Source: Irineochytrium annulatum
Taxonomy: Eukaryota > Chytridiomycota > Chytridiomycetes > Chytridiales > Chytridiaceae
Length of the DNA stretch: 40,537 nucleotides
Reading direction: 5' to 3'
Assembly (NCBI GenBank): GCA_027600665.1
Contig: JADGJL010000116.1
Coordinates: 1 to 40,537 of the forward strand
The translations under genes were made by a program, and so were the position numbers. The notes under the pieces were generated by a model that was not told the DNA's origin, made no database searches, and saw nothing but the letters and a program-made list of their open reading frames with translations. Positions 437-23,949 of the stretch are shown in pieces (the stretch's first letter is position 1; each line of letters opens with the position of its first letter).

Positions 437-1446
437 TCAAGAAGAGGGGAGCATAGAGACATACGGCGGCGGCTCGACCCCATTCGATGCCGCCGTTTCC
501 ACTTCCTCTCCCCCTGTGAGCCTCTCTAATGCAACCCGGAACAAATGTCTCGCGCTGTCGGACTTCACGCCCAGCATAATGAGGTCGTCGTCGGTCAAAG
601 AGCCGAGCCTGGCCCCGGTGATGTGATTTTCTGGCGCGTTTAGTGAGGGGTGGAAGTCGGGATTAAGCAAGAAGAGCGAGCAGCGTGGACGTGTGGGAAA
701 CCAGGGTTTTTACTTTGAAAAGTAAGCACGGTCGAGGGCCGCAACTCTAGCTCGTCACTTAGCCAACGCGCCACGTCCTCTGGAGTCCAGTCTGGCACGC
801 GCTCGCGGATTGGGATCGCGGATATTGATGCTGGTGGACTCGGCTCCGACATCTCCCACCTTGAGGCTGGCGGACTCGGCTCAACCGTCATCTGATGCAT
901 CGCAGCCAGCTGTGCCGTCAACGACAACCCGCCATCCTCGAGACTCCCTTGAGACAAGACGTCGTCGTCATCCCGCGCCGCCCTCTTGGCCCTTCTCGTC
1001 CTCACGTGGCGGACGCCAAAAGGCACCAGCACCACCAAAGTGATGCCCGCAAGCACAAGCACGCCGATCAGACGGGAGCTCGTGGTAGCCGTTGCCGAGT
1101 TTGGGCTCGAGTTTGGGCTCGAGAATGGAGGGTCGAAATAGAACGTCGCTGACGCCGTCGGCGGTAGCCGAGTCCCCACGCAACTGTTCAAGAGGTTCGT
1201 GATAAAAAAGGCCTCGAGCTCCATGTCGACGCCGCCGCATGCATAGAACATGCAGTCGTTCAGCATTGAGTCCCGCGCCATGCAGATGTTCTGGGCCGTG
1301 AAACCGGCCTGGGACGCGCAGGTGCGGATGCAGGGGGAGAGGTAATTGAAGTCGGTTGCGATCTCGCCGTTGGATTGGGAACGCACATGAAAGGGGAGGA
1401 GGAGGACTAAGGCGGCGGCGATGGCCGCTTGCCTGCACGGTGGCAT
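437..1446 (-). CDS. Single-pass membrane protein: 6-Cys CFEM-like ectodomain, TM, SAM domain, PPPY tail
   Basis: Two exons, 1446-714 and 630-437, with an 83-nt GT-AG intron, give 308 aa. I chose the ATG at 1446 because the in-frame codon upstream is only TTG. Order: signal peptide (1 to about 25, ending FHVRSQS), six Cys (39, 43, 55, 65, 70, 89), a short Ser/Asn stalk, a TM helix (about 126-146), a basic stop-transfer, an acidic patch, a repeated EPSPPAS motif, a SAM domain (about 220-283, opening W-T-x-E-D-V-A-R-W-L) and EPPPY (Y301) near the C-terminus. The intron cuts the SAM domain at phase 1, exactly where all SAM paralogs here are cut. The donor is A|GTAAAA; splicing restores the alignment FQ-K-NHITGARL with FK-G-SNVDGARL. 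A receptor or adhesion role is inference. It is divergent from the arrestin-like gene at 2407. Confidence 0.82.
631..713 (-). other. Phase-1 intron inside the SAM domain (representative)
   Basis: GT at 713-712 and AG at 632-631 on the minus strand, 83 nt. Paralogous introns at the same codon are 8663-8717 (-), 10657-10709 (+, pseudogene), 12715-12770 (+), 14061-14109 (-), 16866-16915 (+), 18699-18757 (+), 21441-21491 (+) and 23657-23710 (+). Lengths are 49-83 nt. Confidence 0.8.
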
Positions 1447-2406
1447 TCCCTTCCACAAAAAGACCGAAGGCGGAGGGATGGCTTGGAGAAGGTTGCCTCA
1501 GGCACTCAGCCAATCAGCCCCTTCACATCATTGCCAAACGCTTCCGTCGTCAACTTCGCCGTTGCTGGCCTGGCAAACGGCGACACGATACTCGGAATGG
1601 AATACTCGGAATGGACGCAGCCGTGAGTAGATGGCGTTGGGCCTCATGACGGCGGGCCGGGGCTCGATGGCGATCGCACTGGAGGGGACGCTTTCATTGC
1701 GGAACGTGGAGGGAGATGTGGTCATCCCGTGCCGCGACGAGCATCAATCGGGCTTCAAGGGCGATCACGAGGTGGCCAGCAGCCTTGGACACGCCGTGAT
1801 GCAGCTGAGCGAAGTGCTCGGTTTGTGTAGAGGGACGCCCCAAGTTTGGAGGGGAGCTCCGTCGGCTCATTATCAACCACGAACGGCACGGGAGCGGACC
1901 TCTTCATCTTCATGGCGGACGCTGATAGTTACGAGTCACGATCCGCGACAACCACATCGAGCACCCTACTTAAAACGGCATGGTGAAAGGGCTTAGGACA
2001 ACGCTTCCTGCGCTCTATACGACTTCACATATGGTTGTCATTGTACATTCTACGAAGAGGGAGTTGGGACGTGCGTGACTTTCATATATTTTCGGAGTAT
2101 TTTCATAACTTGTATAAACTGTTGTTGTTGGTGCGAGCGTTGCTCATAGCGCTCTCTTTATAATGCGCGGATGCCTTCTGCTTTGAAATGTTAACCCCCA
2201 TCCTGCCATGGATAGGCGTAAAGGGGTGCGCGAGTGGCTGGGCGATTGTTCTTTGGGCTGGTGTTCGACGTCATGGCGCTCCTCGGCGCAGGTGCCGGAG
2301 CCCAACACGGGGCTGGGGATGCGCCCGCGCACCACCATATAACCGTACGACAACCCCATCACCTGCCCGCTCCTGATGGACCTGGGCCTCTTCTGCGCAG
2401 GACATC
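1447..2406. other. Divergent intergenic region
   Basis: It separates the divergent SAM gene (start 1446 -) and arrestin-like gene (start 2407 +), so it should hold both promoters. A 14-nt direct repeat (atactcggaatgga, twice) lies near 1588-1615. A TATA-like stretch (ctttataatg) is near 2156. Open frames here (for example 1631-1996 +) show no domain, paralog or codon pattern that supports a gene. Confidence 0.5.
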
Positions 2407-4537
2407 ATGGCATCTTACCTCAGCCCGCCGCCATCCCCCACGGCTTTAGCAACAGCGCCGGCCCTGTCCTGCCCGCCCGGCGTCTCCCTGGCTGTTCTAC
2501 TTGATACCCCGACGCTCGATGTCCCGCCGCCCGGATGGGCCGCGATGTCACCGACGCGGAAGCTGGAGGGGACGCTGAGGCTGAGGCTGCATCCATCGGT
2601 CGGGAGCGTGCGGCTGGACCGGATACTACTGGACTTCAAGGGAGAAGGCGGAGCGACGGCTGAGAAGGTCGCGCCATCGAGGATGCGGGGCATGATCAAC
2701 CGGACGCCGAATGGGCATGAGTGCTGCCATGCGAGGGAAGAGGATGTGCATCACCGATTCCTCGTATGGGCAAACGTGCAGGGCTCGGTCGAGGATCGGA
2801 TAGGCTTCATGCCCGGCGTGTATGTTATCTTGTCCTTACGTAACTCCAATCTGGGGTGCTCACTGCAAAGATTCCGCCAGTCACGACTTCCCTTTCTCCA
2901 TCGACGTTCCCATGAACCTGTTGCCTACGCACACGCTCAACCTCCCTCACCTGCACCAACCCGCCTCACGCAATTACACCCTCGCCGCATCCTTTATACG
3001 CTCCCCCCATTCCACACCAACACCCCCCGCCCGGCGCTCGTCCCCGATGACTTCCGCACTCTGGCAGTGCTCGTTGCCCATCCATGTGCGCCAATGCTTC
3101 CCGCGGTGGCAGGTGGCGGAGAACTCCCGCCGCGTGGGACGCGGTGCGACGAGCAACAACGAGTTCGCCGTCAAGGCCGACGTGCCGCGAATAGCGTTCC
3201 GGGAGGATGGGGTGGCGGAGGTGCGGCTTGTCGTCACGCCGGGGAGCCGAGGTTTGGAAGGCGTTAGGGCGGTGAAATGTCAATTGGTCGAGACGAGTCG
3301 GTGTAAGGCCAGACCGGACGCTGCCGTGTCCGTGCCGGTTGGAGACGCATTCTACCATCAAGCAACCACGTCGGTCAAGCCGACTCTCCACAAGCCATAC
3401 CAAACGCTCGACACATTCACAATACCCGACAAACCTACCCCTATAACGCTAACCCTTGAACTGCCTCTTTCAACTGCCCATCCGGATGTTCAAACACCTC
3501 ATCACACGCTCGACCACCACCTGCTCATCCAAATCGAACACGCCGTGGCGCCCGAACGGCCGCGGATGGTCTTTGACGGCGTGTGGGATGTGATGATCCC
3601 CCGACGGCAATTCAATCTGCCTTTCCTTCCTGCTCTCACCGGGAGCGTCACCGCCCAGAATCGTCCGCTCACCGTCCCTGCATCAACGCCGGATCCATCC
3701 TTGCCGACATATATGTCCACACAACAACCGGCGGCCGGGCCGTTGCGGGACGGGATGTTGGTCCACACGGGCACGGTCCGGTCCACTCGGAGCTCCAACT
3801 CGTCCAGTTCGACGCTTTTCGACCACCCTGTGGCCGGGGAGGAATGCATTCGAACGGCGACGCTGACGGTCCCTATCCGGATCGCGCACGCGGCCGAGGA
3901 TCACGACGCGGCCATGATGGCCATCGCGCCGTTGCCGGGCGTGATGGATCCGTCGAGCGGCCGCGGTGGCGGGGACGATCGGAGGGGTTCCAAGGCGTGG
4001 GCGTCGGATGCCGCGAGCGTCGTGAGCTTTGTGATGGATGTCATGGAGGGACGGCATGACGCCGTCAGCGTCGCGAGCGTCGCGCGTTCGAGCAGACCGG
4101 CGGCGTCCGTTCGGCCGCCGTCCACGCTCACGGCACACATGCTCGCCGCACCTCCCTCACAAGACCCGTCGGCGCGTCGCATCTCCCCGGTTCCGTCGAC
4201 CCTGCTCCTCGACGTCAATCCGTTCATGCCCTCCCCGCCGCCGTCGCCGCTCCCACCCGGCGGCGTCCCCAACGACGAGCCCGTCGAGCAGGGCGTGCTG
4301 CACGAGCCTGTGGAGACGCCCCGCGTCGTCCTGCGCCCTCGCGCGCCGTCGGGTTCGCGCTCGGACGAGCTGGACCTCCGGGCCGGGGATCACGTCGTTG
4401 TAGGGGAGGAGGAGGACGGGTGGGTGTGCGGGATGAACCTGATGACGGGGAAGTGTGGGGTTTGGCCCGTGGGCGAGGTGGACTTTGCGCCGAAGGAGCA
4501 AGATGCGGATGACATAGGGCTGGGGATTGTGTCTTGA
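2407..4537 (+). CDS. Arrestin-like adaptor with C-terminal SH3 domain
   Basis: Two exons, 2407-2819 and 2881-4537, give 689 aa; the intron (61 nt) has a perfect GTATGT donor and CCAG acceptor. Splicing joins MPG-V to HDFPFSIDVP, the classic arrestin G-x-H-x-F-P-F-x-x-x-x-P motif. The N-terminal arrestin fold covers about 25-215 (L-G-T-L-R-L-like strand, then LDFKGE); a second arrestin lobe follows to about 400. A low-complexity Ser/Pro region leads to an SH3 domain at about 618-676 (DELDLRAGDHVVV, EEDGW, then G-V-W-P), with the usual ALYDY aromatic residues not conserved. An LPTY at 412-415 is a possible LPxY variant of the PPxY motif; there is no true PPxY. Arrestin-related proteins in fungi link cargo to Rsp5-type ubiquitin ligases for endocytosis. 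The SH3 fusion suggests a Pro-rich partner, which the neighbours offer. The family call is confident; the partner is inference. Confidence 0.8.
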
Positions 4538-5072
4538 TGATAGGTTGGACCTCATTTGCTGCTATAGGTAGTAGGACGAGAAGAGGCTGAACATTAAGCC
4601 TATAATGGTTGTTGGAAGGCGTTTCTTCTCCCACGTTGCACCTCTTTACCTAATGTTTTTTTTTTCCTTTCTATCTATTATGCTCATGAGAGCCTCATAT
4701 GCGACATGCAATATAACAGGCTTTGTGCCGGCCATAGAAGTATGTATGGTCATGACATTTGAAATGGCGTTTTGTCTGATCAACCTCGTGGGGGGATCTT
4801 TGTATGTTGATTAATATGCCCTGGCTCGCATCCGTGAGGCGAGTTAATGGAGCCCCGATCGTCAAGCCGGCAAGTGAATATCCTCCCACGCTGCGAAGGC
4901 TCACAAGCCGTACAAACTCTAATGACTAAATTGCTTGGCCATCTTCGCCTGCTTGCGGTGTGTTGTGTTGTTTCGCACCCGAAACGGGATCCCACGCAGC
5001 TACTTAGCCCATAAGTCCGTTCCGTGGAAAAACGCGGCTTGTCAGATCTTGCAACAGTTCTTTCATTCATTC
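4538..5072. other. Intergenic: arrestin 3' flank and promoter of 5073 gene
   Basis: It contains a long T-tract near 4650-4662 and otherwise unremarkable sequence. The open frame 4605-4814 has no support. The frame of the next gene is open upstream to 4935, but the hydrophobic leader starts at the ATG at 5073. Confidence 0.45.
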
Positions 5073-6407
5073 ATGTTGCCTCTTCCCATCACCATCGTCC
5101 TTGTCCTTGGCGTCCTCGTCGGCCTCCCGGCCCATGTGCGGTCGCAGTCCGAGACCAGCCCCGCCGTCACTGCCGCCTTCAACTCGGCCTCGCCCTGCAT
5201 CCTCAGCTGTGCCGCGCAGGCCAATCCCCCTCTCACGGCGGAGAACGTTTGCCAGGGCGGCTTTAGCCAACTCACGACGAAGGTCGACACTTGCGTGCAA
5301 AATGGTTGCTCCTTCAACGACTTCGACAGCATGATAACGCTGCAGGGGCAGCTGCAGCAAATCTGCTTCGCCTTCATCATGGGCGGCGGATTGACTCCAT
5401 CGCCGATCTCGGTGCCCGTCCCCCCGAACTCCGTACCGGCCAGCCCAAGCACCACCGTCGCCACCCCGTCCCCTGCAAGCCCCACAATCAACCCCGCCGC
5501 GTCCTCCCCATCAGCTAACCCAACTCTGTCCGGCGTTTCATCCACATCTGCAACGACATCCGGCATCGCGGCTCCCATCGCGACAGTTGACAGCAAGCCC
5601 TCATCCGCTTCAACCGCCTCCTGGGTGATCCCCGTCGTCGCCGGGTGCGCGCTCCTGGTCCTCATCGCCATCGGCGTCACCCTCTACTACTTCCTTGTCG
5701 TCCGCAAACGGCGAGGCCTGGCCGACGCCAAACCCGACGCGTACGACACCAACTACAACAACGCTCCCAGCATGCAGTACACGACCCCTTACGCGTCCCA
5801 GCAGACGACTTTCTACCCGACCATGGACCCGCCCCACCAGGCGCAATACGGGTCGGGCCCTGAGCTTCCAGACCTGACGTACCCGGAGCAAGGGACCAGC
5901 ATGTTTATGCATCCTCAGCACCCGTCCGCGTCGCCGTTCAGCGGCGGGGAGAAGAAGCAGCCCGGGATGGAGGCGTCGCCGCCGCCGTTGTTCGAGAAGC
6001 TCCCACTTCAGAGCGCGCCCAACAACAACGTGTCCTCGGACGGCATGTCGTCATCCGGCGGCTCTGGGTCCATGCGCAAGGCGGGGTTCAACCCCCAGCC
6101 GTCGACCGAGAGCTCTGGATCGTCGATGCTCAAGGACGGGTGGGCGAAAGGGGCCACGGCGGGGGGTGATTACTCGAGAATAGAGGGCGAGACGGCACCG
6201 CCGGTGTACAACAGCATGGCGGCGCCGCCGTCAAGCGGTGATGGCGCGTCGATGTTCGGGGGTGGTACTGGCGCATCGATGTTTGGGGGTGGGAGCTCGC
6301 AGATGGCGGGGAACTCGGCTCTGCCGGGGTACAACAGCACGGCGACGCCGCCGTCGAGCGGCACCGGGGCGGCAGGGGCGTCGATGTGGGGGTCGACGCG
6401 GCCTTGA
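5073..6407 (+). CDS. Single-pass membrane protein: 6-Cys CFEM-like ectodomain, Gly/Ser/Pro-rich tail, no SAM
   Basis: A single exon of 444 aa. I start at the ATG at 5073 because it immediately precedes a signal peptide (residues 1 to about 25, ending PAHVRSQS); the frame is open further upstream but not leader-like. Six cysteines (42, 46, 60, 74, 79, 98) follow the C-x3-C ... C-x4-C-x18-C plan of its paralogs. A Ser/Thr/Pro stalk (about 105-182) resembles a glycosylated spacer. The TM helix is at about 184-210, then RKRR. The 234-residue tail is Tyr/Pro/Gln-rich, then Gly/Ser-rich with the repeated motif GASMFGGG, and contains PPVY at 376-379 and LPGY at 417-420, so a WW-type ligand is kept although the SAM domain is absent. 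It is followed in tandem by the paralog at 6651. No enzymatic motif is visible; a cell-surface sensor or adhesin is inference. Confidence 0.8.
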   Translation: MLPLPITIVLVLGVLVGLPAHVRSQSETSPAVTAAFNSASPCILSCAAQANPPLTAENVCQGGFSQLTTKVDTCVQNGCSFNDFDSMITLQGQLQQICFAFIMGGGLTPSPISVPVPPNSVPASPSTTVATPSPASPTINPAASSPSANPTLSGVSSTSATTSGIAAPIATVDSKPSSASTASWVIPVVAGCALLVLIAIGVTLYYFLVVRKRRGLADAKPDAYDTNYNNAPSMQYTTPYASQQTTFYPTMDPPHQAQYGSGPELPDLTYPEQGTSMFMHPQHPSASPFSGGEKKQPGMEASPPPLFEKLPLQSAPNNNVSSDGMSSSGGSGSMRKAGFNPQPSTESSGSSMLKDGWAKGATAGGDYSRIEGETAPPVYNSMAAPPSSGDGASMFGGGTGASMFGGGSSQMAGNSALPGYNSTATPPSSGTGAAGASMWGSTRP

Positions 6408-6580
6408 GCGGTGGGAAGCCAGCATGGAGATTGACCCATCCCCAGTTGCATGCAGCCTCGATATCCCAACCACAACATTTTCCCTTCCATTTCTCCATTT
6501 TTTCGAGTTGCTCGGGATGACAGCGTAGCTTTTAATATCATTCTCGGTTACTCCCGTATTTGGATAGCGTCAAAAGGCTC

Positions 6581-6603
6581 TTGTGTTCAAGGCCCTTGTG
6601 TTC
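6581..6603 (+). promoter_or_regulatory. Two direct TTGTGTTC boxes
   Basis: TTGTGTTC occurs at 6581-6588 and 6596-6603, 15 bp apart, 48-70 bp upstream of the start codon at 6651. The same 8-mer recurs as inverted repeats upstream of other genes in the array. Confidence 0.5.
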
Positions 6604-6650
6604 GAAGGACGAAAATCTGCTCGGGTGGCTTGAATAATCGCCAGCAAGCC

Positions 6651-7829
6651 ATGACGTCCCTCAGCCCGTTCATGGCCGTCGCTGTTGTCCTCACCCTCCT
6701 CCTCGGCGTCCTCCCCGTTCACGTGCGGTCCCAATCCTTCGACGCCGCAGTCGCGGCGGCTTTCAACTCCCTTCCCGCATGCTCCAAAACATGCGCCAGC
6801 CAAGCCGGCATCACTGCGGAAAACATCTGCCAGAAGGACGAGATGAGCGATGCGATCTCTAGCTGCTCCCTCAACGCCTGCGGGCATGACGACTTTGGGG
6901 CCATGTCGTCGATAACCGCGAACATCTTCGGCCTCTGCACGGGCTTGGACTCGCCGCCAAAGCCGGTGACCCCGCCGACGCCTGCAACACCGCCGACGAC
7001 GTGGACCCCGCCGACGCCGTGGACCCCGCCGGCGCCCGTGACGTCGTGGACCCCGCCGACGCCTTCGGCCCCTCCGACGCCTTTGGCCCCGCCGACGCCT
7101 GTGGTCCTGCCGACTCCGTTGGTCGCGCCGACGCCGCCGTCGGGGGCCCCGGCGACGCCGTCGTTGGCCTCGCCGACGCCGTTGGCCCCTCAGCCTGCAG
7201 AGTCTGACCCTAGCTCGGGCGTCGCCAACTCAGCCCACCCGTCCAGCACACCCGTCGTTGCGCCTAAAACATTCACGTCTTCAAACCGCGCGTCCCCAAC
7301 TCCGCGGACATCGCACCCGGCCGCCAGCGACCCGACGGACACGACCAGCAGCTCCTCGAGCTCCTACTCCTCCTCCTCGCCCTCGTTCTTCTCATCGATG
7401 CCGCCGCTCTTTATGGTCGTCCTGGTCATCTTCGCCCTCGTCTTCCTGTGCGTCATCTTCGGGATCATCTACAAGCACTTCATTGCGAAACCGCGCGGCG
7501 AGAAAATGGGGCCCATGATCGTACCGCCGAAGGGCGTCATGCTGTACACGACGGGCGGGGCGGCCCGGAATCCATCACGACCTCGGTCGTCGACGACGAC
7601 GACGGCCGAGCCACGGCGGCAACCCACCAACGAGTTCACGTATCCCACCAGCGAATACACGTATCCGCAGTACCCTCAAGCGGCCGCGGGTCACCAGCAG
7701 GGTCAGTGGTATGCAGGAGGAGCCAGCAGCGGCTCTGGGACGTATCACTCGAGGACCAGTGAACCGACGCCGCCGTCGAGCATGCGAGCGGGTGAGCCGG
7801 TCCCGCCCTACCCCGCCTTTCACAGTTAG
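6651..7829 (+). CDS. Single-pass membrane protein: 6-Cys CFEM-like ectodomain with long TPP-repeat stalk
   Basis: A single exon of 392 aa. The ATG at 6651 starts a clear signal peptide (1 to about 28, ending PVHVRSQS); the frame is open upstream to 6450 but not leader-like. Cysteines at 44, 48, 60, 72, 77 and 96 give C-x3-C-x11-C-x11-C-x4-C-x18-C, identical to the partial gene at 1-316. A stalk at about 101-250 consists of repeated PPTP/WTPPTP units followed by a Ser run, probably extended and O-glycosylated. The TM helix is at about 252-274. The 118-residue tail has repeated FTYPTSEYTYP-like Tyr motifs and ends VPPYPAFHS, a degenerate relative of the PPxY ending. There is no SAM domain. Two TTGTGTTC boxes lie 48-70 bp upstream of the ATG. 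It is the tandem neighbour of the 5073 gene. Confidence 0.8.
   Translation: MTSLSPFMAVAVVLTLLLGVLPVHVRSQSFDAAVAAAFNSLPACSKTCASQAGITAENICQKDEMSDAISSCSLNACGHDDFGAMSSITANIFGLCTGLDSPPKPVTPPTPATPPTTWTPPTPWTPPAPVTSWTPPTPSAPPTPLAPPTPVVLPTPLVAPTPPSGAPATPSLASPTPLAPQPAESDPSSGVANSAHPSSTPVVAPKTFTSSNRASPTPRTSHPAASDPTDTTSSSSSSYSSSSPSFFSSMPPLFMVVLVIFALVFLCVIFGIIYKHFIAKPRGEKMGPMIVPPKGVMLYTTGGAARNPSRPRSSTTTTAEPRRQPTNEFTYPTSEYTYPQYPQAAAGHQQGQWYAGGASSGSGTYHSRTSEPTPPSSMRAGEPVPPYPAFHS
6968..7195 (+). repeat. Pro-rich minisatellite in coding sequence (CCGCCGACGCC-like units)
   Basis: Imperfect repeats of about 12-18 nt encode TPPTP/APPTP/WTPPTP in the stalk of the 6651 gene. The length is likely to vary between alleles by slippage (inference). 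Confidence 0.6.
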
Positions 7830-7989
7830 AACGGCGTTTTTTTAATGGATAGACGCCAACGCGTGCAGGAATGATGAGGGTAGAATTGAAGGCGTTTCTC
7901 GTAGAAGGTTAACGTTTCTCGAGGCGAATAGATTAATACAGGCATCTTATGCTTACTGCTGCATATTTCTTTTCACTCATTCTGCTAGA
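7830..7989. other. 3' flank of 6651 gene
   Basis: AT-richer sequence after the stop codon; no gene or motif that I can support. Confidence 0.4.
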
Positions 7990-8280
7990 TGGGTAACGGA
8001 TCACCGGCAGCCGCCGCGTCCTCCGCCCTGCGGACGAGAGGTTGCCACCCATGAATTAACCGCCGAAACCTGCGCGCAGTCGGCTAGTTGGCCATCGTGT
8101 CGGCCGAGCAGTTATTGTTAAACTGATAACAACAAAGCGGCAAGGGCACACCATCCATACCCGCCCTGAAATGAAGACACCAGTGGTATGCGGGCTTGTG
8201 ATTCTGCTGAGCGCTGCCAATGACCTCAAATGAGGCGTAGCCTTCTATAGAGGCATCAAAGAGGAGACATCTAGTCCGCG
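7990..8280 (-). pseudogene. Decayed ectodomain fragment of an 8-Cys SAM-receptor paralog
   Basis: This stretch aligns collinearly, with many substitutions and gaps, to 9386-9740, which encodes the stalk and 8-Cys ectodomain exons of the gene at 8478-9881. Shared words include gtcggccgagcagttatt, cctcaaatgaggcgta and aagcctgcgcgcagt-like sequence. No long frame survives, and the TM/SAM half is absent. It has the same orientation as the intact gene. I read it as the relic of a second tandem copy. Confidence 0.6.
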
Positions 8281-8345
8281 GGCTGCATCCATCCAGTTCA
8301 CAGGTTGATCTGCCAGTGGCGGTATATTAGCACTAATTTATTGTG

Positions 8346-8396
8346 AGAAGAACGTAAGCGGAGAGAAATGCACATAAAAGAACGCAGCGAAAGAAT
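8346..8396 (-). other. Conserved 3' flank block
   Basis: On the minus strand this reads TTCTTTCGCTGCGTTC...TGCATTTCTCTCCGCTTACG. Versions occur after the stop codons at 10952-11012, 13788-13850 (-), 17151-17212, 18997-19055 and 21742-21800. It is either a shared 3' UTR signal or unbroken paralogous homology. Confidence 0.5.
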
Positions 8397-8477
8397 TAAA
8401 TGGCCAAAACCGGAAAAAGAAAAATATTGGAGATGGAACCCGGACACCGCAGGCGAAGTGGGAACGCGGACGCCACT

Positions 8478-9881: not shown

Positions 9882-9898
9882 CAGGGCGTGGTCGTCGA

Positions 9899-9951
9899 TT
9901 GTGTTCCGTCTTTTTGGCCATGTACGAACGGATGGACATATCGACGAACAC
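9899..9951 (-). promoter_or_regulatory. TTGTGTTC/GAACAC half-site pair and AAAAAGACGGAACACAA element
   Basis: On the minus strand, AAAAAGACGGAACACAA (complement of 9899-9915) lies just upstream of the ATG at 9881, and a GTGTTC (complement of 9946-9951) lies further upstream, forming a spaced inverted repeat with it. The element closely matches those before the genes at 13876, 15830 and 19695. Confidence 0.45.
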
Positions 9952-9964: not shown

Positions 9965-10894
9965 CTGGTGTTCGGCTTCGTGACTGTCGGCGTCGAGTTT
10001 TAGATCCGCAGGCGGAGAGCGACGAAGGCGGTTCACATCTACCCTATCGCGCGCGGCGTCGGGCATGATGGCCGCCGCCGTTCAGATCACGGTGCGACAA
10101 CACCGCAGGAGGACAGCGGCGAAAGGTAGCCGTGACGGCTGCTGCCGTGGACGTGACCAACATAGACCTGGCGCCCGGTCCGAAGGGTGGCGGGGTGGGT
10201 TGGAAATGTAGCTTTCTTACGAACCACTTCCAGCGGGTGGTGTGACCGAGTTCAAGGCTTCGATCCCGTACGATCCCGCAGCCAACGTCGAGCCCGCACC
10301 GCCTCGGCGTGCGGCCTAGTTAGCCGTGGTGTCCACGCATGGCGGCAACGGCGAGGCTGTCCAAGGTAGAGCAGACCTCGCGGCCTGCTACCGTCCGCCT
10401 TGGATGGATGTCCAGCAGGTGGCTGACGCCGACCCCTCGAGGACGCTTTTAAGGAAACTCCCGACATCAGTTGTTGGGGGGCCTGGGATCTTGGCGTCAA
10501 ACGAGATTTCGCCGCTACTACTGAGCGGTGGGATGTTTTCGACGCCCGGAGATGCTTTCGCGATGACTGATGTGGGGACATGGTCATCACAGGACGTGGC
10601 GCGCTGGCTCGAGGACAAGCTCCAGCTCCGGGAGGCGATCGTCAATGCATTCAAAGGTATGGTGGTTTTTCCGCTCCACTTTTTCAACGTGCTAACGGAT
10701 TCTTGTCAGGCAGCGGTGTTGACGAAGCGTGGCTGTCGACGTTGACGGACGAGGATTTGAGCACTGTGATGGGTCTTTCGGAGAAGGCGACATTATGGTT
10801 CCGGGCGGCGTTGGAGAGACTCCCGGGAGGCACCGCGCGCGATGAGAGCGTAATGGCGCCTCCGCCGTATCATTCCAGGTCGCCGTCCGCCAAG
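9965..10894 (+). pseudogene. Mosaic SAM-receptor pseudogene (TM and tail only, stop gained and stop lost)
   Basis: 9965-10040 matches the TM/stop-transfer region of the 8-Cys gene (..GFVTVGV.., then IRRRRATKA) but with a stop. From about 10050 the sequence switches to a decayed copy of the TM and tail of the genes at 17420 and 19695 (GVTEFKASIPYDPAANVEP region). A TAG at about 10317-10319 sits where the paralogs have a Ser codon. From 10326 on, the tail, SAM domain, SAM intron (10657-10709) and APPPYHSR are well preserved. At 10892-10894 the paralogs' TAG stop is AAG, extending the frame to 11020 with KKQRPRSS and more. There is no ectodomain. The SAM half may still be transcribed, but no start or leader is credible. 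Confidence 0.7.
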
Positions 10895-11039: not shown

Positions 11040-11097
11040 CGGACGACCACGTCCGATTATACCCAGCATCAACCACGAACACGAGTTTTCTGTGTTC
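11040..11097 (+). promoter_or_regulatory. CGG-N10-CCG palindrome plus GAACAC...GTGTTC inverted repeat
   Basis: CGGAC-gaccac-GTCCG at 11040-11055 is a perfect inverted repeat with the CGG-N10-CCG geometry used by some fungal Zn2Cys6 factors such as Put3. GAACAC (11077-11082) and GTGTTC (11092-11097) form a second palindrome. The start codon is at 11188, after the shared leader ggcgacatcagcgaggctgcc. Confidence 0.55.
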
Positions 11098-15402: not shown

Positions 15403-15415
15403 AGCTGAGGTGGGA

Positions 15416-15434
15416 CTTGTGCTCCGTCTTTTTT
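15416..15434 (-). promoter_or_regulatory. AAAAAGACGGAGCACAAG upstream element
   Basis: Minus-strand 18-mer 14 bp upstream of the ATG at 15402; identical to the plus-strand copy at 19656-19673 before the paralog at 19695, and two bases different from the one at 15796-15813. Confidence 0.5.
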
Positions 15435-15781
15435 GCATGGGGCGTGCAAGCCTTGAGCAGGTCTGGTTATCACGCTTGTGCCATTGGCGCCTCGATGGTG
15501 GGACGGAAATGGCTGCTGAGCCGGGCCAACCCGCGTCGCCGAGAGTGGCCGCTCACGGGCGTGGCGCCGGGTCCGGATATGTCCAACAACCCTGTGGGCG
15601 AGGCAGCCGTGCCCGACGCGCTCCAATGGTGGCGGGAGCGAGAGCATCAAACGTTGGGAGTACGGTCGAATGTTCTTATTTATCGATTTAACAGTACTAA
15701 CCTCACTCCCTAAATGACCGCCAACGAGATAACCACCTGTTTTAATTCAGCTAAAGGTTTTGGCGCGTGTATGAAGGAGTT

Positions 15782-15813
15782 TTGTGTTCACATGGAAAAA
15801 GACCGAACACAAG
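15782..15813 (+). promoter_or_regulatory. TTGTGTTC...GAACACAA inverted repeat with AAAAAGACCGAACACAAG
   Basis: TTGTGTTC (15782-15789) and GAACACAA (15805-15812) are perfect 8-bp inverted repeats with a 15-bp spacer, ending 18 bp before the proposed ATG at 15830. Confidence 0.5.
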
Positions 15814-15829
15814 CTTCAACGAAGAGGCA

Positions 15830-17100
15830 ATGGCCACTGTCGCCACGTCGGTGTCCACGTCGGGGTGGGCCGCGAATCCGTATCACGGAAACTGCGGGGC
15901 CAACCAGGTATGGCTGTTGAGAGGGTGGAGATGGGAAACGACGCGGAGGCGATCTCCGACGACGCCACCGTCCAATTGTCCCTCATTTCCTTCTCTCCTT
16001 GCACCTTTCAACTGAAGGCATCCTCTCGTTGAGCAGAACAACTTCGACCTCTGCGTCCACAACCTCCTCGCCGACAGCTCCAAGAGATCCTTCGTCACCG
16101 TTGAGGGCTATTGCTCTTTCCAGCCGGACACCTACTACCAGTGCCTCTGCGACCGCTACAACCGCCTCGTCCAGTGCTTCACCAACAACTGCGCGACCGA
16201 CACCGTCAACGTTGTGGACTACCAGCACTCCGAGTCCGCCGACTGCTCTATCGCGTCCCAACTGGGTCAGTCGCCAACCGTAGGGTCGGCGACCCCGCCA
16301 AGCAAACAGGTGACGATCGATATCGACAGCGCTACGGCGGCGTATATTATCGTCCTCATGGTGGTGGGCATCACGGCCCTCGGAGGTGTGGTCTGGAACT
16401 GTGTGGTCTGGATCCGTAGGTGGAGGGCGACCAAAGCGGAGCAAGCGGGTCCCGTCGACCCGATACCGCCTCGTTCGGCAACCGGATGGACGGGTATAGA
16501 CGTGTCTCATCGCTGTGACCCGCCTCTGGAGGTTAAGCTACCACCACTTGCGCGTGCGGCCTTGCCGACTGAGGTACCGTCCCGCATGTCAGGTTTCGGC
16601 ATCGGGTTGTCGATGGCGGAGCCTGTGCCGCCGCCATCATTGGATGGGCTGATGCCGATGTCGGATGGCGCCGGATTTTCGACGATGGTGGACAAAGGCC
16701 CGATATCAGTGGTTGAGCCATCCCGCGGTGAAAGGTCCAGCACGTACTCAATTACTATGGATGCCGTCACATCACCGGATGTGGAGACATGGTCAACGCT
16801 GGACGTTGCGCGATGGCTCGAGGACAAGCTCCAACTTCGGCCCGCCATCGTCAATGCATTCAAAGGTGTGACAGAGTTTACCCTCCACTTCCTGTCTTCT
16901 AAATTGTTATCATAGGCAGCAATGTTGACGGCGCGCGGCTCCGGACGTTGACGGACGAGGATTTGAGGGTTCAGATGGGTCTTTCCGAGGAGGCGAAAAT
17001 AATGTTCAGGGCCGCGTTGGAGAGACTCACGAGGGACGCCGCGCGCAATCCGAGCGGAGTGTCGCCACCGCCTTATCACTCCAAGTTGCCGTCCGCCTAG
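15830..17100 (+). CDS. Single-pass membrane protein: 8-Cys (C-x-C) ectodomain, TM, SAM domain, PPPY tail
   Basis: Three exons, 15830-15907, 16037-16865 and 16916-17100 (introns 129 and 50 nt), give 363 aa. Cysteines 22, 32, 52, 62, 64, 73, 78 and 96 match the gene at 8478-9881 in all spacings except one (x9 instead of x12), but this gene lacks the intron after the C-x-C that its relative has. The core is YYQCLCDRY, then QCFTNNC. A short stalk, TM about 127-152, IRRWR, a Pro-rich tail, SAM about 278-341 and SPPPYHS near the end follow. No signal peptide is apparent: residues 1-26 are polar, and the longer in-frame start at 15767 is not hydrophobic either. The 5' end is therefore uncertain, or the protein needs another route to the membrane. 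Confidence 0.76.
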
Positions 17101-17272
17101 AAACAGCGATGTCCGGGTTTCCGCTCCTACATTGTTGGTTTTTTAGCCATTCTTTCGCTGCATTCTTTTACGTGCATTTCTGTCCGTCTTCTCCTCATAA
17201 TAAATTAGTGCTTTATACCGCCAGCGGCTCCTCATGACGAGAATTTGCCATCCATGCATGACCAGTATCCCC

Positions 17273-17327
17273 CGGACTACAACGTCCGATAACCTAGGGT
17301 CGTACACGAACACCAGTTTCTGTGTTC
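17273..17327 (+). promoter_or_regulatory. CGG-N10-CCG palindrome plus GAACAC...GTGTTC inverted repeat
   Basis: CGGAC-tacaac-GTCCG at 17273-17288, then GAACAC (17308-17313) and GTGTTC (17322-17327). This is the same arrangement and spacing as before the genes at 11188 and 22018. The leader ggcggcatcagcgaggtt precedes the ATG at 17420. Confidence 0.55.
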
Positions 17328-17419
17328 GCCTTGCCCATTGCAATCAAAATCTCAATCTCAGTGATCTGCCCTTGGTGGACTCGTTGCGGGCGGCATCAGC
17401 GAGGTTCCACTTCCCGGCG

Positions 17420-18942
17420 ATGGCCTCCCCGATCTCCATCACGGGCTCGACGTTCCCGACGCTCCAGCTCCCTTCCTGTTACCGGGCGCTCAACGCCTTG
17501 TCCTTCCCCTTCACCTCCCCCAACTCCTCAGCGCCCTTCGGCCTCCCGCCCTCAATCTTCCCCGCATCCAACAACGACCCGTCCTTGCTGTGCTCCCCGC
17601 TCTGCCACTCCCTCGCCGCCTCCGTCCACGCCGACCCCGCAGCAGTCGGCTTTGTTGCCTACAACAACCAGCTCAAGACCGGCGTGCCCTGCGTCGGGTT
17701 GGCGCAGGGCGACCGGGGCCTGTGCTGCAAGTGCTTGTTGCTGCCGGATCTCGAGGGCGTGCTTCTTGCGCCGCAAGTCGACGATGCCGCGTGCCCGCTG
17801 TGCGTTGATGGGATGACCGGACGGTGCTCGGACGTGCAGGCCGGCTTGATCGGCGGGAGCGTCGTGTGGATTGAGAGGGTGAACAGCACAGCAGCGTTCG
17901 CGACGGGACAGGTGGTGTCGTTCGTGCCGTTCACGACGTTCGCGTCCACTTCCGGAGTAACCAGTGCCACCACGACGACCGCCGCCGAGCAAACTCACGT
18001 GGGCTCATCGTCTACGCCGTCGACCGGTGCTATCGCGGGGGGCGTCGTTGGGGCCATCGCGGCGCTTGGCGTGATGGCCGCCGCCGTTGCGGTCTGGGTG
18101 CGACGAAAACGCAGGGAGGTCGCCGCAAAAGGAGCCGCGAGGGGTGCTGCCATCGGCGCGGGCAACGTGGACTTGGTTCGGCGTTCGCAGGGTGGTATGG
18201 CTGGGTTGGAGGTGTCGATTCCGTATAAGCCCCGTCCGGCAGGTGTGACGACTGTTGTGGCTCCGGTGGAGGCTTCGATCCCGTACGAGCCCGCAGTTAA
18301 CGTCGAGCCCGCGCCGCCTCGGGAGCCCGTACCGCCTCGGCGTGCAGGTTCGTTAGCCGTAGAGCCCACGCGGGAGGTCGTGGCCGCAACGGCGAAGCTG
18401 TCAAAGATAGTGGAGACTTCGCGGCCGGCTAACGTCGGCCTTGGGGTGGATGTCCAGAGGGTGGCTGGTGCCGAGCTTTCAACGACGTTGCTAGGGAAAC
18501 TCCCGACGTCAGTTGTTGATGGGCCCGGGATCTCGGCGTCGAAGGAGAGGACGCCGCCACTAATGAGCGGTGGGACGATTTTGGCGCCCGGGGATGCTTT
18601 CGTGATGCCTGATGTGAGGACATGGTCAACACAGGACGTGGCGCGCTGGCTCGAGGACAAGCTCCAGCTCCGGAAGGCGATTGTCAATGCATTCATAGGT
18701 ATGCTGGGTTTTTTTTTTTTCGTGTTCCGCCTTTTTTACGTTCTGAACTATTGTCAGGCAGCGGTGTTGACGGTGCGCGGCTGGTGACGCTAACGGATAA
18801 GGATTTGAGCGTTGAAATGGGTCTTTCGGACGAGGCGAAATTGATGTTCCGGGCGGCGTTGGAGAGACTCACCGGAGGTTCCGTGCGCGAACAGAGCGAA
18901 GTAGCGCCACCGCCTTATCACTCCCGGTTGCCGTCCACTTAG
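17420..18942 (+). CDS. Single-pass membrane protein: unrecognised 10-Cys ectodomain, TM, SAM domain, PPPY tail
   Basis: Two exons, 17420-18698 and 18758-18942 (59-nt intron), give 487 aa. I chose the ATG at 17420 because it directly follows the leader shared with the genes at 11188 and 22018; the frame is open back to 17234. The ectodomain (about 1-175) has ten cysteines, including L-C-S-P-L-C, C-C-K-C and C-P-L-C, and I do not recognise it. A Thr-rich stalk, TM about 203-227 (GAIAGGVVGAIAALGV), basic residues, two degenerate LEVSIPYKP/VEASIPYEP motifs, PVPPRRAGS, SAM about 402-465 and PPPY at 477-480 follow. The TM and tail match the 19695 gene closely although the ectodomains are unrelated, which points to module exchange. 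No signal peptide is visible at either start, so the N-terminus is uncertain. Confidence 0.77.
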
Positions 18943-19109
18943 AAACGGCGATATCCGAGTTCACGCTCCTCCCTTGTTGGTTCTTTTTACCCAGTTTTGC
19001 GCTGCATTCTTTTTTACGTGCATTTTCTCTCCGCTTATATTCTCCTCATAATAATATCTTGCTTGAGACACCGCCACTGGTTCGTATGTGAGAATCTGTT
19101 TGGCTCCCC

Positions 19110-19161
19110 CGGACTACTGTGTCCGACAACCAAGCCACGGAACACAAGAGGTTTTGTGTTC
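19110..19161 (+). promoter_or_regulatory. Orphan CGG-N10-CCG palindrome plus GAACACAA...TTGTGTTC inverted repeat
   Basis: CGGAC-tactgt-GTCCG at 19110-19125; GAACACAA (19140-19147) and TTGTGTTC (19154-19161). The leader words catcagcgaggctgg follow at about 19184, but no reading frame resembling a family member starts there. Confidence 0.5.
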
Positions 19162-19655
19162 GCCGTCGGCTTCGTGTGTTCAACATCAGCGAGGCTGGCA
19201 GCCACCGAGCTTTGCTCTGACCTTTTTCATGTGGTGCCAACCTTCTTTCGTCGTTACGATCGATTCTCCTTCGCACGTTTCGTTTCTTTTCTTATCGTCG
19301 AAACTGCATCCAAAAGAAAAGCGAATTTATAAATGATCGACCACATCACAGACCGCCACCGCTACGCGTGTCGATGTCGGGGTGCATGCGATACCTCCGA
19401 GGCCATATTGTTGGATAAGCATCGTGAGTGGAATGCAGCGACAACGGCAAATACAAAACTGCGGGCAGAAAATAATTGCATCTAAAATTGAACAAAAATT
19501 CGAACGCGTTGGGGATATCGAAAGAAAGGGGTCGTGCAAACGGGAGGATCAATGAATTTCGAGGTGAATGTCAGGATAACATGCCTTCTCCACTGTATTC
19601 CTGATCCGACGCATGTGAACAACCCGCGATAGCTTTGTTTGTACGCCGACGCGCG

Positions 19656-19673
19656 AAAAAGACGGAGCACAAG
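19656..19673 (+). promoter_or_regulatory. AAAAAGACGGAGCACAAG upstream element
   Basis: Exact 18-mer match to the element before the paralog starting at 15402 (-); it ends 21 bp before the ATG at 19695. Confidence 0.5.
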
Positions 19674-19694
19674 CCCTCGGTTTCTTCACCCCCG

Positions 19695-21676
19695 ATGATC
19701 GTGACGCGCCTGGCGTCCGTCGTCCTCGCCGTCGCGGCAGCCACGGTGGCCGCGGTCAGTGGCCGCGGACTGTTGCAGGAGAAGGGCTACAACTGATTAT
19801 TTCGCCGAACGAACAGGCCGAATCGATCACCATCTGGCTCGGCGACGACACAGCAGCAAAGACCATCTCACCGGTCTCCGCCACCGTCCACGATGACGGC
19901 GGCGTCAACGTCTTTTGGAACACGAAAACCGACAATGCATATACTATTTGCATGCAGGAAGGGTGCGGATCCGGGTGTATTGGGGGCGACGTCAGAAAGC
20001 CTGACGGGTTCGGTCAACGCCTCGAGGTTGGAGTGTATCACTATTGGACCGACTTGGGCGGTGGCTTTGGACCGCGATGCAAGATGAGCCAACCTCCTGA
20101 GGCCACCATCACCGTCCTGCCTCGGGAAACTAAGGCGTCTCCGTCACCGTCATCTACGCCCAACTCGCCGTCATCAAAGCCCACCCCGCCGCCATCAAAG
20201 TCGACCTCGCCGTCATCAACGTCCACCTCATCGTCATCATCGCCCACCTCACTTTCATCGTCCTCATCGTCATCATCGTTCAGTACCCCATCGCTCGCCC
20301 CAACGGTGACTGATCCGGTGCCGCCGACCACGGCCGCCGCGCAGTCGATCACGCCAACGAGCGCCACTACAACGACGGCAGCTGAGCAGACTCACGCGGT
20401 TTCAGCGTCGACGGTATCGAACGGCGCTATCGCGGGGGGTATCGTCGGGGCCGTCGCGGCGTTGGGCATAATGGCCGCCGCCGTTGCGATTTATGTGCGA
20501 CAGAAACGCAGGAATACCGCATCGAAGGGATCCGCGAGGGGTTCGGCCATGGCCGTGTCCAACGTGGAATTGGCGCCTGGTCCGAAGGATGGTGGGACCG
20601 GGTTGGAGGTGTCGATCCCTTACAAACCCCTTTCAGCGGGTGGTGTTGCTGGGTTGGAGGTGTCAACCCCTTGCGAACCACTGCCAGCGGGTGGTGTGGA
20701 CGAGCTGAAAGCTTCCATCCCGTACGAACCCCTGCCAGCGGCTGGTGTGACCGAGCTAAAAGCTTCGATCCCGTCCGAGCCCCTGCCAGCGGGTGGTGGG
20801 ACCGAGCTGAAAGCTTCGATCCCGTACGAACCCCTTCCACCTGGTAGTGTGGCCGAGCTGAAGGCTTCGATCCCGTACGATCCCGCAGCCGCCGACGTCA
20901 AGCCCTCGCCGCCTCGACGTGCGGCCTCATTAGCAGTGGAGTCCGCGCGGGAGATCGTGGCTGACTTAAAGGCGGCGATCCCTTATGAACCCCTTTCAAA
21001 TAATCGTGTGGCCGAGTTAAAGGCTTCACTCCTATACGATCGCACAGCCGACGTCAAGCCATCGCCGCCTCGACGTGCGGCCTCGTTGATAGTGGAGTCC
21101 ACGCGGGAACTCGTGGCGGCGACAGCGAGGCTGTCGATGATAGAGGAATCTCTCTCGCGGCCGCTGGACGGCGGTCGCGGCGTGGACGTTTGTGTGACGA
21201 GGGAAGCCGACCCCTCAACGACAGTATTGAGGACAGTCGTCCCGCCGTCAATTGTTGGCGGGCCTAGGATATCGGCGTCGTTGGAAAACTCAGCGCCACC
21301 ATCACGAAGCGGTGGGATGGCTTCGACGCCAGACGATGCAGTCGCGACGCCGGAGGTGAGGAGATGGTCAACACAGGAAGTGGCGCGCTGGCTCGAGGAC
21401 AGGCTCCAACTCCGGCCCGCTATTGTCAATGCATTCAAAGGTATGACAGAATATGCGCACCCACTATCTGTCTTCTTAAATGTTATTATAGGCAGCAATG
21501 TTGACGGCGCGCGGCTGTGGACGCTGACGGACGAGGAGTTGAGCGTTGAGATGGGTCTTTCGGATGAAGCGAAGTTGATGTTCCGGGCAGCGTTGGAGAG
21601 ACTCCCGGGAGGCTCCGCGCGCGATGAGAGCGAAGTGGCGCCTCCGCCTTATCACTCCCGGTTGCCGTCCGCTTAG
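19695..21676 (+). CDS. Single-pass membrane protein: cupredoxin-like domain, Ser-rich stalk, 17-residue repeats, SAM, PPPY
   Basis: Three exons, 19695-19754, 19817-21440 and 21492-21676 (introns 62 and 51 nt), give 622 aa. The last intron has a length divisible by three and no stop, so it could be mistaken for coding sequence; alignment to paralogs shows it is an intron. Signal peptide 1-20; cupredoxin-like domain about 21-122 (TIWLGDDTA, an extra C-x4-C-x3-C cluster at 65-74, GVYHYW, Cys108, ATITVLP). A Ser/Pro stalk to about 220 includes poly-Ser. TM about 224-247. Six 17-residue repeats (GLEVSIPYKPLSAGGVA to ELKASIPYDPAAADVKP) start at residue 282, followed by a second partial array with PSPPRRAAS twice. 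SAM about 537-600; PPPY 612-615. It is the longest member of the array. Confidence 0.85.
20600..20905 (+). repeat. Six tandem 51-bp units encoding a 17-residue PYEP repeat
   Basis: Units start at 20600, 20651, 20702, 20753, 20804 and 20855. The consensus [EG]L[KE][AV]SIPYEPLPAGGV[AT] is in frame. The gene at 13876 carries about three related units, and 17420 two degenerate ones. A further partial array lies around 20960-21060. Confidence 0.85.
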
Positions 21677-21852
21677 AAACAGCGACGTCCGCGTTCCGCT
21701 CGTTTGACCGTTGGTTCTTCACCAAGTTTTTTTGCGATCCAATTCTTTCGCTGCATTCTTTTGCATGCATTACTCTCCGCTTAAGTTCGCCTCATAATAT
21801 GATTATTGCGTAATACACCACGCATTGGCTCGTGGAATGATGATGCAGCCCG

Positions 21853-21909
21853 CGGACTACCACGTCCGATAACCCAGCATCAACCACGAACACAAAAAGA
21901 CTTGTGTTC
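21853..21909 (+). promoter_or_regulatory. CGG-N10-CCG palindrome plus GAACACAA...TTGTGTTC inverted repeat
   Basis: CGGAC-taccac-GTCCG at 21853-21868; GAACACAA (21888-21895) and TTGTGTTC (21902-21909) with a 6-bp spacer. The shared leader ggcgacatcagcgaggctgcc ends just before the ATG at 22018. Confidence 0.55.
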
Positions 21910-22017
21910 ACCGTCCCTTGCAACCATTACAGCCATCCCACTGCGCTGGAGCCAACCTCCAGCAATCGGCCCCTGGCGTCCTCGTCGGCGGCGACATCAG
22001 CGAGGCTGCCAGCTGCA

Positions 22018-23949
22018 ATGATCCCCGCAGCGCCCGGAGTCGCGCTCATCGCTCTCACCGCGCTCATCGCGGTCGTCGCGGTGGCAAGTGGGGCCGCGGC
22101 CGACCAAGTGGTGCGTACACACTGTTCTCGTGCGCACGTTGCTAATGGAAACAACTAGGGCAGCAAGGACTTCATTGTGCGCCTCCTCGAAGACGACGGA
22201 ATCATTTGGGACGGTGATGTCACCATCAAGGCCGGCCAGTCCGTGCGTTGGCATAACGAAGTCAGCTGGCTTGTCGCCTCTGTACTCCAAGAAGACCAGC
22301 CCGGCGCATGCGAAAAGTCCAGCAAGACCCTCATCAACCTCATCAACTTCACGGCGTCCTTCTCCGATGCCATTGTTTTCCGGACGCCAGGGACTTACTA
22401 TTGGTTCTTGGACGCACATACGGACAAGCTCCCCGTCCTTCCAAACGACTGCATTGACGGAACGATCAAAGTCTTGGGCCCGCCGGCTCCGGAATCATCA
22501 AGCGGATCGGTAACACCGTCGCCAACAACTGTGAGTAGCTGCGGCGTGACAAGTGACCGGAAAGCGACACGAAAGATGAGCCAAAAAAGGGATGAAGGAA
22601 CGGAAATCGTCAAGCGGAAGTTGGGATATGTGGTCATAGACATCCTCAACAGCAGCGGAATTATACACTGCCGGATCATGGCCCTGACTCCATTCTAAAG
22701 GAAGATTCATCATTAAAACTAGGTCCCATCCACCACAACCGTCCACTTCGGCGACGGTGGCGTTCTCAATCAATCCGTGACCATCTCTGCTGGCGACTCC
22801 ATACAATGGCAGAGTGATGCCCTGGGCTACGTCTACCAAGAGGACAGGCCCGGTCAATGCGTGGAATCGCTTGTGGACGTCACCATTGAGGTCAACAACG
22901 CCTTCGTCGTTAACGGCGTCTCGAATGCCATCGTCTTTGCAACACCGGGCATTTACTACTGGTTCGTCACGAAATCGATGCGGAACGATACGATTGCGCC
23001 GTGTACGTCGAGCGCAGAAGGGGCTATTACGGTGTTACCGCTGAGCACGACCGCTGTCAGCGACCGTGGGTCGCAACCCGCAAGCGCAGCCATCGCTGGG
23101 GCCGTCGTCGCTGCCGTCATTGCGGTGGGCTTACTGGCTTCTGGCGCCATGATCTGGATCCGCAGACGGAGGCGGGCTGTGAAAGCGCGCGATCTTGGGA
23201 AGGATGTGGGGCCCGTCGACATGATAGAGCCGTTGGCGGCGGAAGTAATGGGTTTGGAAACATCGGTTCCCTATGAGCCTTCCAAGCCAGTGAAGCTTTT
23301 GCCTCCTACGCGAGTGGCCTCGATGATTAACTCACCAGTGCGTCTGTCGGGAGTCAGCTTCAGCTTGTCGGCGGTGGAGGAGGATCCTATGGGTCACCTC
23401 TCGACATTATTGGAACACATAGGGCCGGCGGGTGAGATCCCATCGGTAGAGGATAAGATTCGGCTGGGAGTGGATGACGCCGGGGGTTCGCCTATGGTAG
23501 AGCGACCGTTGCCGGTCCAAGCATCTGGTGGCGAGGACTCGACGTTGGGAGATCTCGCCGCTCCGCCGGATGTGGCGACATGGTCTAGCGAAGACGTGGC
23601 CCACTGGCTTGAGGATAAGCTCCAGCTTCGGCCTACGACCGTTGATTTATTCCGAGGTAAGAGCGCTTCTTCAAGAGATACCCTCGCATGTTGCTGACGA
23701 ATTTCATTAGGCGGCGATGTAAATGGAGCACGGCTCATAGCTCTGACCGACGAAGATTTAAGGGACCAGCTCGGTCTGACGTCTGTGGACGCCAGGCGTA
23801 TGTTCCGGGCAGCGTTAGGAAGCCTCATGGGGTGTGCCGCAGTAAGCGGTGAAAGTAGGGAGGCGCCGCCGCCTTATCTTTCCAGGATGCCTTCTACGTT
23901 ACCTTCGACGTTGCCTTCTACTTTGCTTTCTACTACGTTGCCTGCTTAG
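22018..23949 (+). CDS. Single-pass membrane protein: two cupredoxin-like domains, TM, SAM domain, PPPY tail
   Basis: Four exons, 22018-22110, 22159-22530, 22723-23656 and 23711-23949 (introns 48, 192, 54 nt), give 545 aa. An in-frame TAG at the end of the first intron (aactag) proves it must be spliced. Signal peptide 1 to about 28 (ends GAAADQ). Cupredoxin-like domain 1 about 32-140, domain 2 about 156-264 (W-Q-S-D, GIYYWF, Cys before EGAITVLP). TM about 277-301, IRRRRR, one LETSVPYEP juxtamembrane motif, an insert of about 60 residues that the paralog at 11188 lacks, SAM about 442-505, then APPPYLSRMPST and LPST repeats. It is the dispersed duplicate of the gene at 11188, with homologous promoter, introns and downstream flank. 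Confidence 0.85.

Follow-up and report, generated by a model that had tools for sequence, protein, structure and literature searches.

Unrelated head modules on one transmembrane-SAM-PPPY tail in a gene family of the chytrid Irineochytrium annulatum

We examined a 40,537-nucleotide stretch of DNA, hereafter the window, from the chytrid Irineochytrium annulatum (order Chytridiales); the window is contig C122 of a genome of 26.9 Mb in 1082 contigs, from one strain. It encodes a family of proteins in which unrelated heads are joined to one conserved tail, made of a transmembrane (TM) helix, a SAM domain and a PPPY motif. Beside most members stands one of two DNA elements, neither of which was seen elsewhere in the genome. 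Our interpretation, held with middling confidence, is that these genes form a lineage-specific family, probably co-regulated, of receptor-like proteins that cross the membrane once and have no kinase.

One conserved tail and four types of head

Exons were set by hand from the reading frames, with GT...AG introns of 48–192 bases; the first introns of genes G and J have weak donors. Eight intact genes were rebuilt, with A, D and G on the minus strand and F, H, I, J and K on the plus strand, which bears out a preliminary description of this DNA that had placed eight intact genes on both strands between positions 437 and 23949. Cysteine-rich heads are named below by their number of cysteines (6-Cys, 8-Cys and 10-Cys).

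437..1446, minus strand: gene A, exons 1446-714 and 630-437; 6-Cys CFEM-like head, TM helix, SAM, PPPY; SAM_2 27.3 bits
8478..9881, minus strand: gene D, exons 9881-9825, 9754-9626, 9570-8718 and 8662-8478; 8-Cys head with C-x-C, TM helix, SAM, PPPY; no obvious signal peptide; SAM_2 23.1 bits
11188..13015, plus strand: gene F; signal peptide, two cupredoxin-like domains, TM helix, SAM, PPPY; SAM_2 21.7 bits
13876..15402, minus strand: gene G; signal peptide, one cupredoxin-like domain, TM helix, SAM, PPPY; SAM_2 28.2 bits
15830..17100, plus strand: gene H; 8-Cys head, 5'-shortened relative to a paralog of glycosylphosphatidylinositol (GPI) type on contig C233; TM helix, SAM, PPPY; SAM_2 25.7 bits
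17420..18942, plus strand: gene I; 10-Cys head, TM helix, SAM, PPPY; no obvious signal peptide; SAM_2 25.9 bits
19695..21676, plus strand: gene J; signal peptide, one cupredoxin-like domain, Ser/Thr stalk, TM helix, then 8 juxtamembrane repeats, SAM, PPPY; SAM_2 22.4 bits
22018..23949, plus strand: gene K; signal peptide, two cupredoxin-like domains, TM helix, SAM, PPPY; SAM_2 31.4 bits

The SAM_2 profile (PF07647) exceeded the Pfam gathering score in all eight genes, PPPY was present in each of them at 7–25 residues from the C-terminus, and hydropathy gave a single internal membrane helix per gene, with an extra borderline peak (1.63) within the head of gene F. The Pfam scan, hydropathy and motif check thus recovered in 8/8 genes the common interior of one TM helix, C-terminal SAM and PPPY that had been proposed. 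PPPY always stands after the helix and an Arg-rich sequence, which would place it on the cytoplasmic side. The helix of G, I and J also gave sub-threshold matches to TM_ErbB1 (15–18 bits, cut-off 27.1), taken as generic helix matches.

In every gene, the first half of the SAM domain shares one exon with the helix and with at least part of the head, so the fusion of head and tail is independent of splicing guesses. Whether the SAM exons might be left unspliced to those of the ectodomain and TM helix, a doubt raised in the preliminary description, is thereby largely answered from the sequence. The second half of the SAM domain and the PPPY motif depend on a single splice, at one conserved last intron that interrupts the same SAM codon in phase 1 in 8/8 genes. 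A juxtamembrane motif resembling LExS[IV]PYEP had also been ascribed to all eight; with a fixed pattern, this held strictly for five of them (2 copies in F, 3 in G, 2 in I, 8 in J and 1 in K), while the motif is degenerate by eye in D and H and was not found in A.

When the SAM-PPPY profile was compared with solved structures, the top matches were SAM proteins (ETV6 fusions, Shank2, liprin and SARM1). The ETV6 and Shank SAMs, among the nearest solved structures, are polymer-formers, and the likeness is one of resemblance only. The SAM domain of G forms five helices in an AlphaFold model (predicted local distance difference test, pLDDT, 60–69) and matches SAM structures in Foldseek. The ratio of nonsynonymous to synonymous divergence (dN/dS; Nei-Gojobori, 28 pairs) of the SAM sequence was 0.13–0.69 with a median of 0.22 in the 23 pairs that could be scored, the other 5 being saturated; low values are in many cases those of pairs with dS > 1 and hence rough. 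The SAM domain thus appears to be mostly under purifying selection. The spacer gave 0.62–0.64 in the pairs F-K, G-J and D-H.

Further copies of the tail were found in the window and elsewhere in the genome. Copy numbers in the genome are lower bounds because the protein searches of the genome score only the best candidates. The ninth copy in the window is a fragment:

10052..10888 (about), plus strand: fragment E; headless TM helix, tail, SAM and PPPY, with two in-frame stops

Contigs C111 and C77 each hold a member with a cupredoxin-like head, SAM and PPPY, the former with a frame change directly after the helix. The C111 member adjoins a polyubiquitin gene (tandem ubiquitin repeats, same strand). 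Two other candidates were not counted as members: C672, with SAM halves and no PPPY seen, and the region from C380:12761 onward, with SAM-like units followed by PPPYHSF, broken frames and no resolved head.

The deposited hypothetical proteins HK101_000990, 991, 992, 994 and 995 correspond to D, E plus F, G, J and K, respectively. Our model of G is identical to the deposited protein (P0005), whereas the deposited models depart from ours in the N-terminal 24 residues of D, in a stalk stretch of J, and in K, where some residues between its two cupredoxin-like domains differ and the deposited model is truncated within SAM. No counterpart of H, I or A was among the deposited proteins returned by the protein searches. 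HK101_000991 (P0001; 10052-13015) combines the SAM of fragment E with gene F; we rejected it as a real architecture because F has its own start, a hydrophobic N-terminus and an upstream inverted repeat. It is most likely a gene-prediction artefact, which at face value would suggest a false SAM-cupredoxin-TM-SAM protein.

Four types of head were found: cupredoxin-like (single or double), 6-Cys, 8-Cys and 10-Cys. The rebuilt genes support the earlier notion of a multigene family whose interior is constant and whose outer modules are unrelated to one another. Three neighbouring genes carry such a head with a helix and without SAM:

5073..6407, plus strand: gene B; CFEM-like head and TM helix, without SAM, PPVY in the tail; CFEM 11.2 bits (cut-off 22)
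6651..7829, plus strand: gene C; CFEM-like head and TM helix, without SAM; CFEM 18.1 bits (cut-off 22)
25095..26031, minus strand: gene L; cupredoxin-like head and TM helix, Ala/Pro-rich tail, without SAM

The cupredoxin-like heads of F, G, J, K, L and the C111 and C77 members (nine domains) join in one alignment. Their profile found plastocyanins first among solved structures (best E 5.4e-6), and the head of the AlphaFold model of G, a weak model (mean pLDDT 41), has eight strands; despite its low confidence, this model matched best a cupredoxin, 5fc9_A (Foldseek E 5.1e-4, target TM 0.53, root mean square deviation 8.3). Both sequence profile and fold thus match solved cupredoxins. Blue copper proteins bind the metal through His/Cys/His/Met. 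In contrast to plastocyanin-type cupredoxins, none of the His/Cys/His positions covered by the plastocyanin alignment, which stops before the Met, is kept here, and none of the nine single heads matched a Pfam copper family, the scan returning two chance-level families among them. Membership in the copper-binding proteins was rejected on both grounds.

The 6-Cys head is common to A, B, C and a partial gene at 2-388. CFEM (PF05730) scored below its cut-off of 22 in B, C (values above), the partial gene (17.3 bits) and a gene on C380 (14.1 bits), and gave no match in A at E<=1 in the Pfam scan. CFEM domains are defined by eight cysteines. These heads resemble fungal CFEM proteins in being Cys-rich with weak matches to the profile, but they differ in having six cysteines (A, B and C) and in staying below threshold, and CFEM membership was rejected. 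Five further CFEM-like matches cluster in two open frames at C352:2209-5059 (minus strand).

The 8-Cys head is common to D and H, with the cysteines kept in both; a low-confidence model of it (second exon of H, mean pLDDT 59) contains helices only. For the 10-Cys head of I no second copy was found in the genome at E<=0.1.

Two DNA elements beside the family genes

The sequence AAAAAGACSGARCACA has six exact matches in the 26.9-Mb genome and its reversed control none. All six lie 12–42 bp upstream of an ATG, namely those of D, G, H, J and the C111 and C77 members; allowing one mismatch added two matches, as many as the reversed control gave. Pairwise identity among the sites was 88–100%, compared with 17–35% in the 40 bases upstream and 10–45% in the 20 bases downstream. 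An element kept to this degree amid dissimilar flanks argues for selection rather than recent ancestry.

The second element is an inverted repeat, GAACAC-N6-10-TGTGTTC, with 6 matches (two palindromes) at 4 sites in the genome and 3 matches for the reversed control. Each of the 4 sites lies within the window and precedes one of the genes F, I, J and K. The two elements have GAACAC in common.

9900..9915, minus strand: AAAAAGACGGAACACA, before the ATG of D
15418..15433, minus strand: AAAAAGACGGAGCACA, before the ATG of G
15796..15811, plus strand: AAAAAGACCGAACACA, before the ATG of H
19656..19671, plus strand: AAAAAGACGGAGCACA, before the ATG of J
11077..11097, plus strand: inverted repeat GAACAC-N8-TGTGTTC, 90 bases upstream of the F ATG
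17308..17327, plus strand: inverted repeat, 92 bases upstream of the I ATG
19140..19161, plus strand: inverted repeat, 533 bases upstream of the J ATG
21888..21909, plus strand: inverted repeat GAACACAAAAAGACTTGTGTTC, 108 bases upstream of the K ATG; also contains AAAAAGAC

In the window, 12 of the 14 GAACACA sites fall no more than 600 bp 5' of one of nine genes (binomial p 8e-10, with a flank length picked after the sites were seen and with paired sites that are not independent). The shared elements probably mark one regulon. They had gone unnoticed in the preliminary description, and of the new evidence we consider them the strongest sign of a single regulated system.

The inverted repeat upstream of J is followed, within 19140-19200, by a stretch (catcagcgaggct...) that by eye resembles the leaders of F, I and K and that does not lead into a head; this may perhaps be the 5' remnant of a lost gene.

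Modest signs of different histories in heads and tails

Three of the four head types also exist without the SAM tail in the same genome. The 8-Cys head occurs on C233 and C246, with 68–69% identity to H and 41–42% to D, and in a more distant form on C348; the genes that could be read (C233, C246 and one on C348) end in a GPI-type hydrophobic stretch and are without SAM. The C233 gene has its signal peptide and the start of the head in one exon. The homology of H begins at its own ATG, inside that exon, and the signal-peptide part is therefore missing from H. CFEM-like heads followed by a helix and lacking SAM are those of B, C and C380:3780, and L is the cupredoxin-like counterpart.

Similarities of heads and tails modestly conflict for some pairs. 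G and J have the same head type, yet the SAM of J is nearer to those of D, I and H (dS 0.23–0.32) than to that of G (0.74). The tail of D is closest to those of I (82.7%) and the C111 member (80.3%), with 77.4% to H despite their common head type, and the most similar 5' parts in the pairwise table were those of J and the C111 member (80.8% over 255 bases). Approximately unbiased (AU) tests restricted to the SAM coding sequence rejected neither {G,J,C111} (p 0.211) nor {D,H} (p 0.212). With SAM, intron and 3' flank together, {J,C111} (0.003), {D,H} (0.033) and {G,J,C111} (0.046) were rejected and {G,J} (0.51) was not. Exchange of tails or gene conversion is likely, though not proven. We do not claim repeated capture of the 8-Cys head, because the 8-Cys tree has very long branches and the test of {H,D} gave p 0.136.

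Other features of the window include a long open frame between A and B (2822-4537, plus strand), with a sub-threshold C-terminal SH3_9 match (20.5 bits, cut-off 30), and two related open frames on the plus strand (26893-28452 and 31074-32642; 519 and 522 residues) with no Pfam match at E<=0.1, which are possibly a second duplicated family. A cation efflux gene lies at 39078-39611 on the minus strand (Pfam PF01545, 67 bits), and directly downstream of it, at 38639-39307, is a frame rich in His-Gly repeats.

Weighing the receptor reading and its relation to known systems

Several observations weigh against a co-regulated family of receptor-like proteins. The conflict of the tail trees is modest, and after correction for six AU tests only the rejection of {J,C111} would survive. 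Gene A carries neither element, merely a partial reversed match beside its start. The ligand side had been supposed to diversify; positive selection was not seen in the heads, where dN/dS was 0.33–0.59 in three pairs (F-K, G-J and D-H, with 0.33 in D-H), and that supposition was not supported in this sense. For SAM, values of 0.69 (F-K) and 0.65 (J-D) indicate little constraint between recent copies. These last values, along with the two stops in fragment E, the frame change after the C111 helix and the sighting of the family in one species only, fit a decaying lineage-specific duplication of little function, whose common tail and elements would reflect nothing more than recent ancestry. With eight genes open, a median SAM dN/dS of 0.22 and a 16-bp element 88–100% kept in otherwise unlike flanks, such decay seems to us very improbable.

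A further such point concerns the N-termini. Signal peptides were judged by hydropathy only (best 15-residue stretch in the first 50 residues), and the peak was 0.75–1.43 in D, H and I, which have no obvious signal peptide, compared with 2.34–3.03 in the other five. The modules had been called extracellular throughout; the hydrophobic N-terminus agrees with this in five members, while D, H and I lack signal-peptide support. The heads of these three might stay inside, leaving only the members with a signal peptide as receptors, and the exon of H, which is truncated so that it lacks the signal peptide present in its C233 paralog, would suit this view. However, the heads of D and H keep their cysteines with a dN/dS of 0.33, and a helix followed by Arg-rich sequence can insert with the N-terminus out, as in neuregulins. 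We therefore find it doubtful that these three are not surface proteins, while giving the idea some weight.

No described family with this combination was found in the literature searched or in protein searches of limited reach, in keeping with what the preliminary description had stated. The searches score only candidates that have exact five-residue words in common with the query (7997, 266 and 100 candidates), and within that reach the TM-SAM-PPPY architecture was not found outside I. annulatum. With the tail of gene A as query there were 100 candidates, none at E<=10, and A itself was not returned; gene A therefore appears to have no matching protein on deposit, and word-based searches that fail to return even A may miss relatives in other chytrids.

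Eph receptors are likewise single-pass receptors with an intracellular SAM domain, and their ephrin partners are cupredoxin-derived according to PMC6485061. The family differs in having PPPY at the end and in combining a cupredoxin-like domain and SAM in the same chain, and no Pfam match to a tyrosine kinase or Eph ligand-binding domain was found (seven genes at E<=1, D at E<=0.1).

A second likeness is to the Rsp5 adaptors Ear1, Ssh4 and Bsd2, in which we know of no exchangeable heads. According to PMC2810449, these three are membrane proteins and recruit Rsp5, PY motifs are bound by the WW domains of Rsp5, and Ear1 and Ssh4 have SPRY domains. Members of the family could be adaptors of this sort, with PPPY bringing Rsp5 to the membrane and SAM or the head picking cargo for degradation. 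Such a role is consistent with PPPY in every gene, with the WW matches of the genome, which number 16 (C776 and C193 have three apiece), and with the established adaptor function of yeast membrane proteins (PMC2810449). On the other hand, no SPRY or arrestin profile matched the family in Pfam scans and an adaptor has no need of diverse large heads, and we judge this role unlikely. By predicted behaviour, Eph receptors and Rsp5 membrane adaptors come closest to the family, and the other defining domains of neither were found in the Pfam scans.

Opy2 of the yeast high-osmolarity glycerol (HOG) pathway is also a single-pass fungal protein with a Cys-rich domain. Pfam contains an Opy2 model, and Pfam scans gave no match to it in the eight genes. 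A title cited in PMC13233613 attributes to Opy2 an extracellular eight-cysteine motif, and that paper has Opy2 reaching Ste11 via Ste50, whose RA domain binds Opy2 and whose SAM binds Ste11. By analogy, the SAM tail could bind the SAM of a Ste11- or Ste50-type protein, so that one protein would serve as mitogen-activated protein kinase anchor in place of yeast Opy2 plus Ste50. Nine other SAM_2 matches in the genome, none on the window's contig, would supply candidate partners; the missing Opy2 match and a PPPY that this model leaves unexplained make it, in our view, quite unlikely.

Under the receptor reading, the head would meet a surface or environmental ligand, and SAM, going by the known behaviour of such domains, would cluster the tails or dock a SAM-bearing signalling partner. 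PPPY would likewise recruit a WW protein, most simply a Rsp5/NEDD4 ligase, and ubiquitination by this ligase would send the clustered receptor to uptake and turnover. New members would arise when the head of a GPI-type or TM-type surface gene comes to lie between the 5' element and the fixed tail; neighbouring genes would later exchange tails. Carried further, and put forward tentatively as a proposal with a minor chance of holding, this would be a head-capture receptor system with a regulon of its own: the start-proximal 16-bp element and the fixed TM-SAM-PPPY tail would frame an exchangeable head, with heads taken from GPI-anchored or other surface genes and tails reshuffled in the array, giving a changeable receptor set (for recognition of kin, partner or prey) with one clustering-and-turnover output.

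We know of few descriptions of surface receptors in early-diverging fungi; for fungi other than the ascomycete yeasts, adhesion molecules are similarly little described according to PMC6023273. As a set for testing, the family is small: its tail is of one kind, its heads are of four, and its two short DNA elements predict co-expression. If clustering and turnover hold true, it would represent a receptor design of SAM plus PPPY without a kinase, which was not found in the literature searched, and a visible route to new fungal receptors, in which a secreted head is joined to a ready-made promoter and tail.

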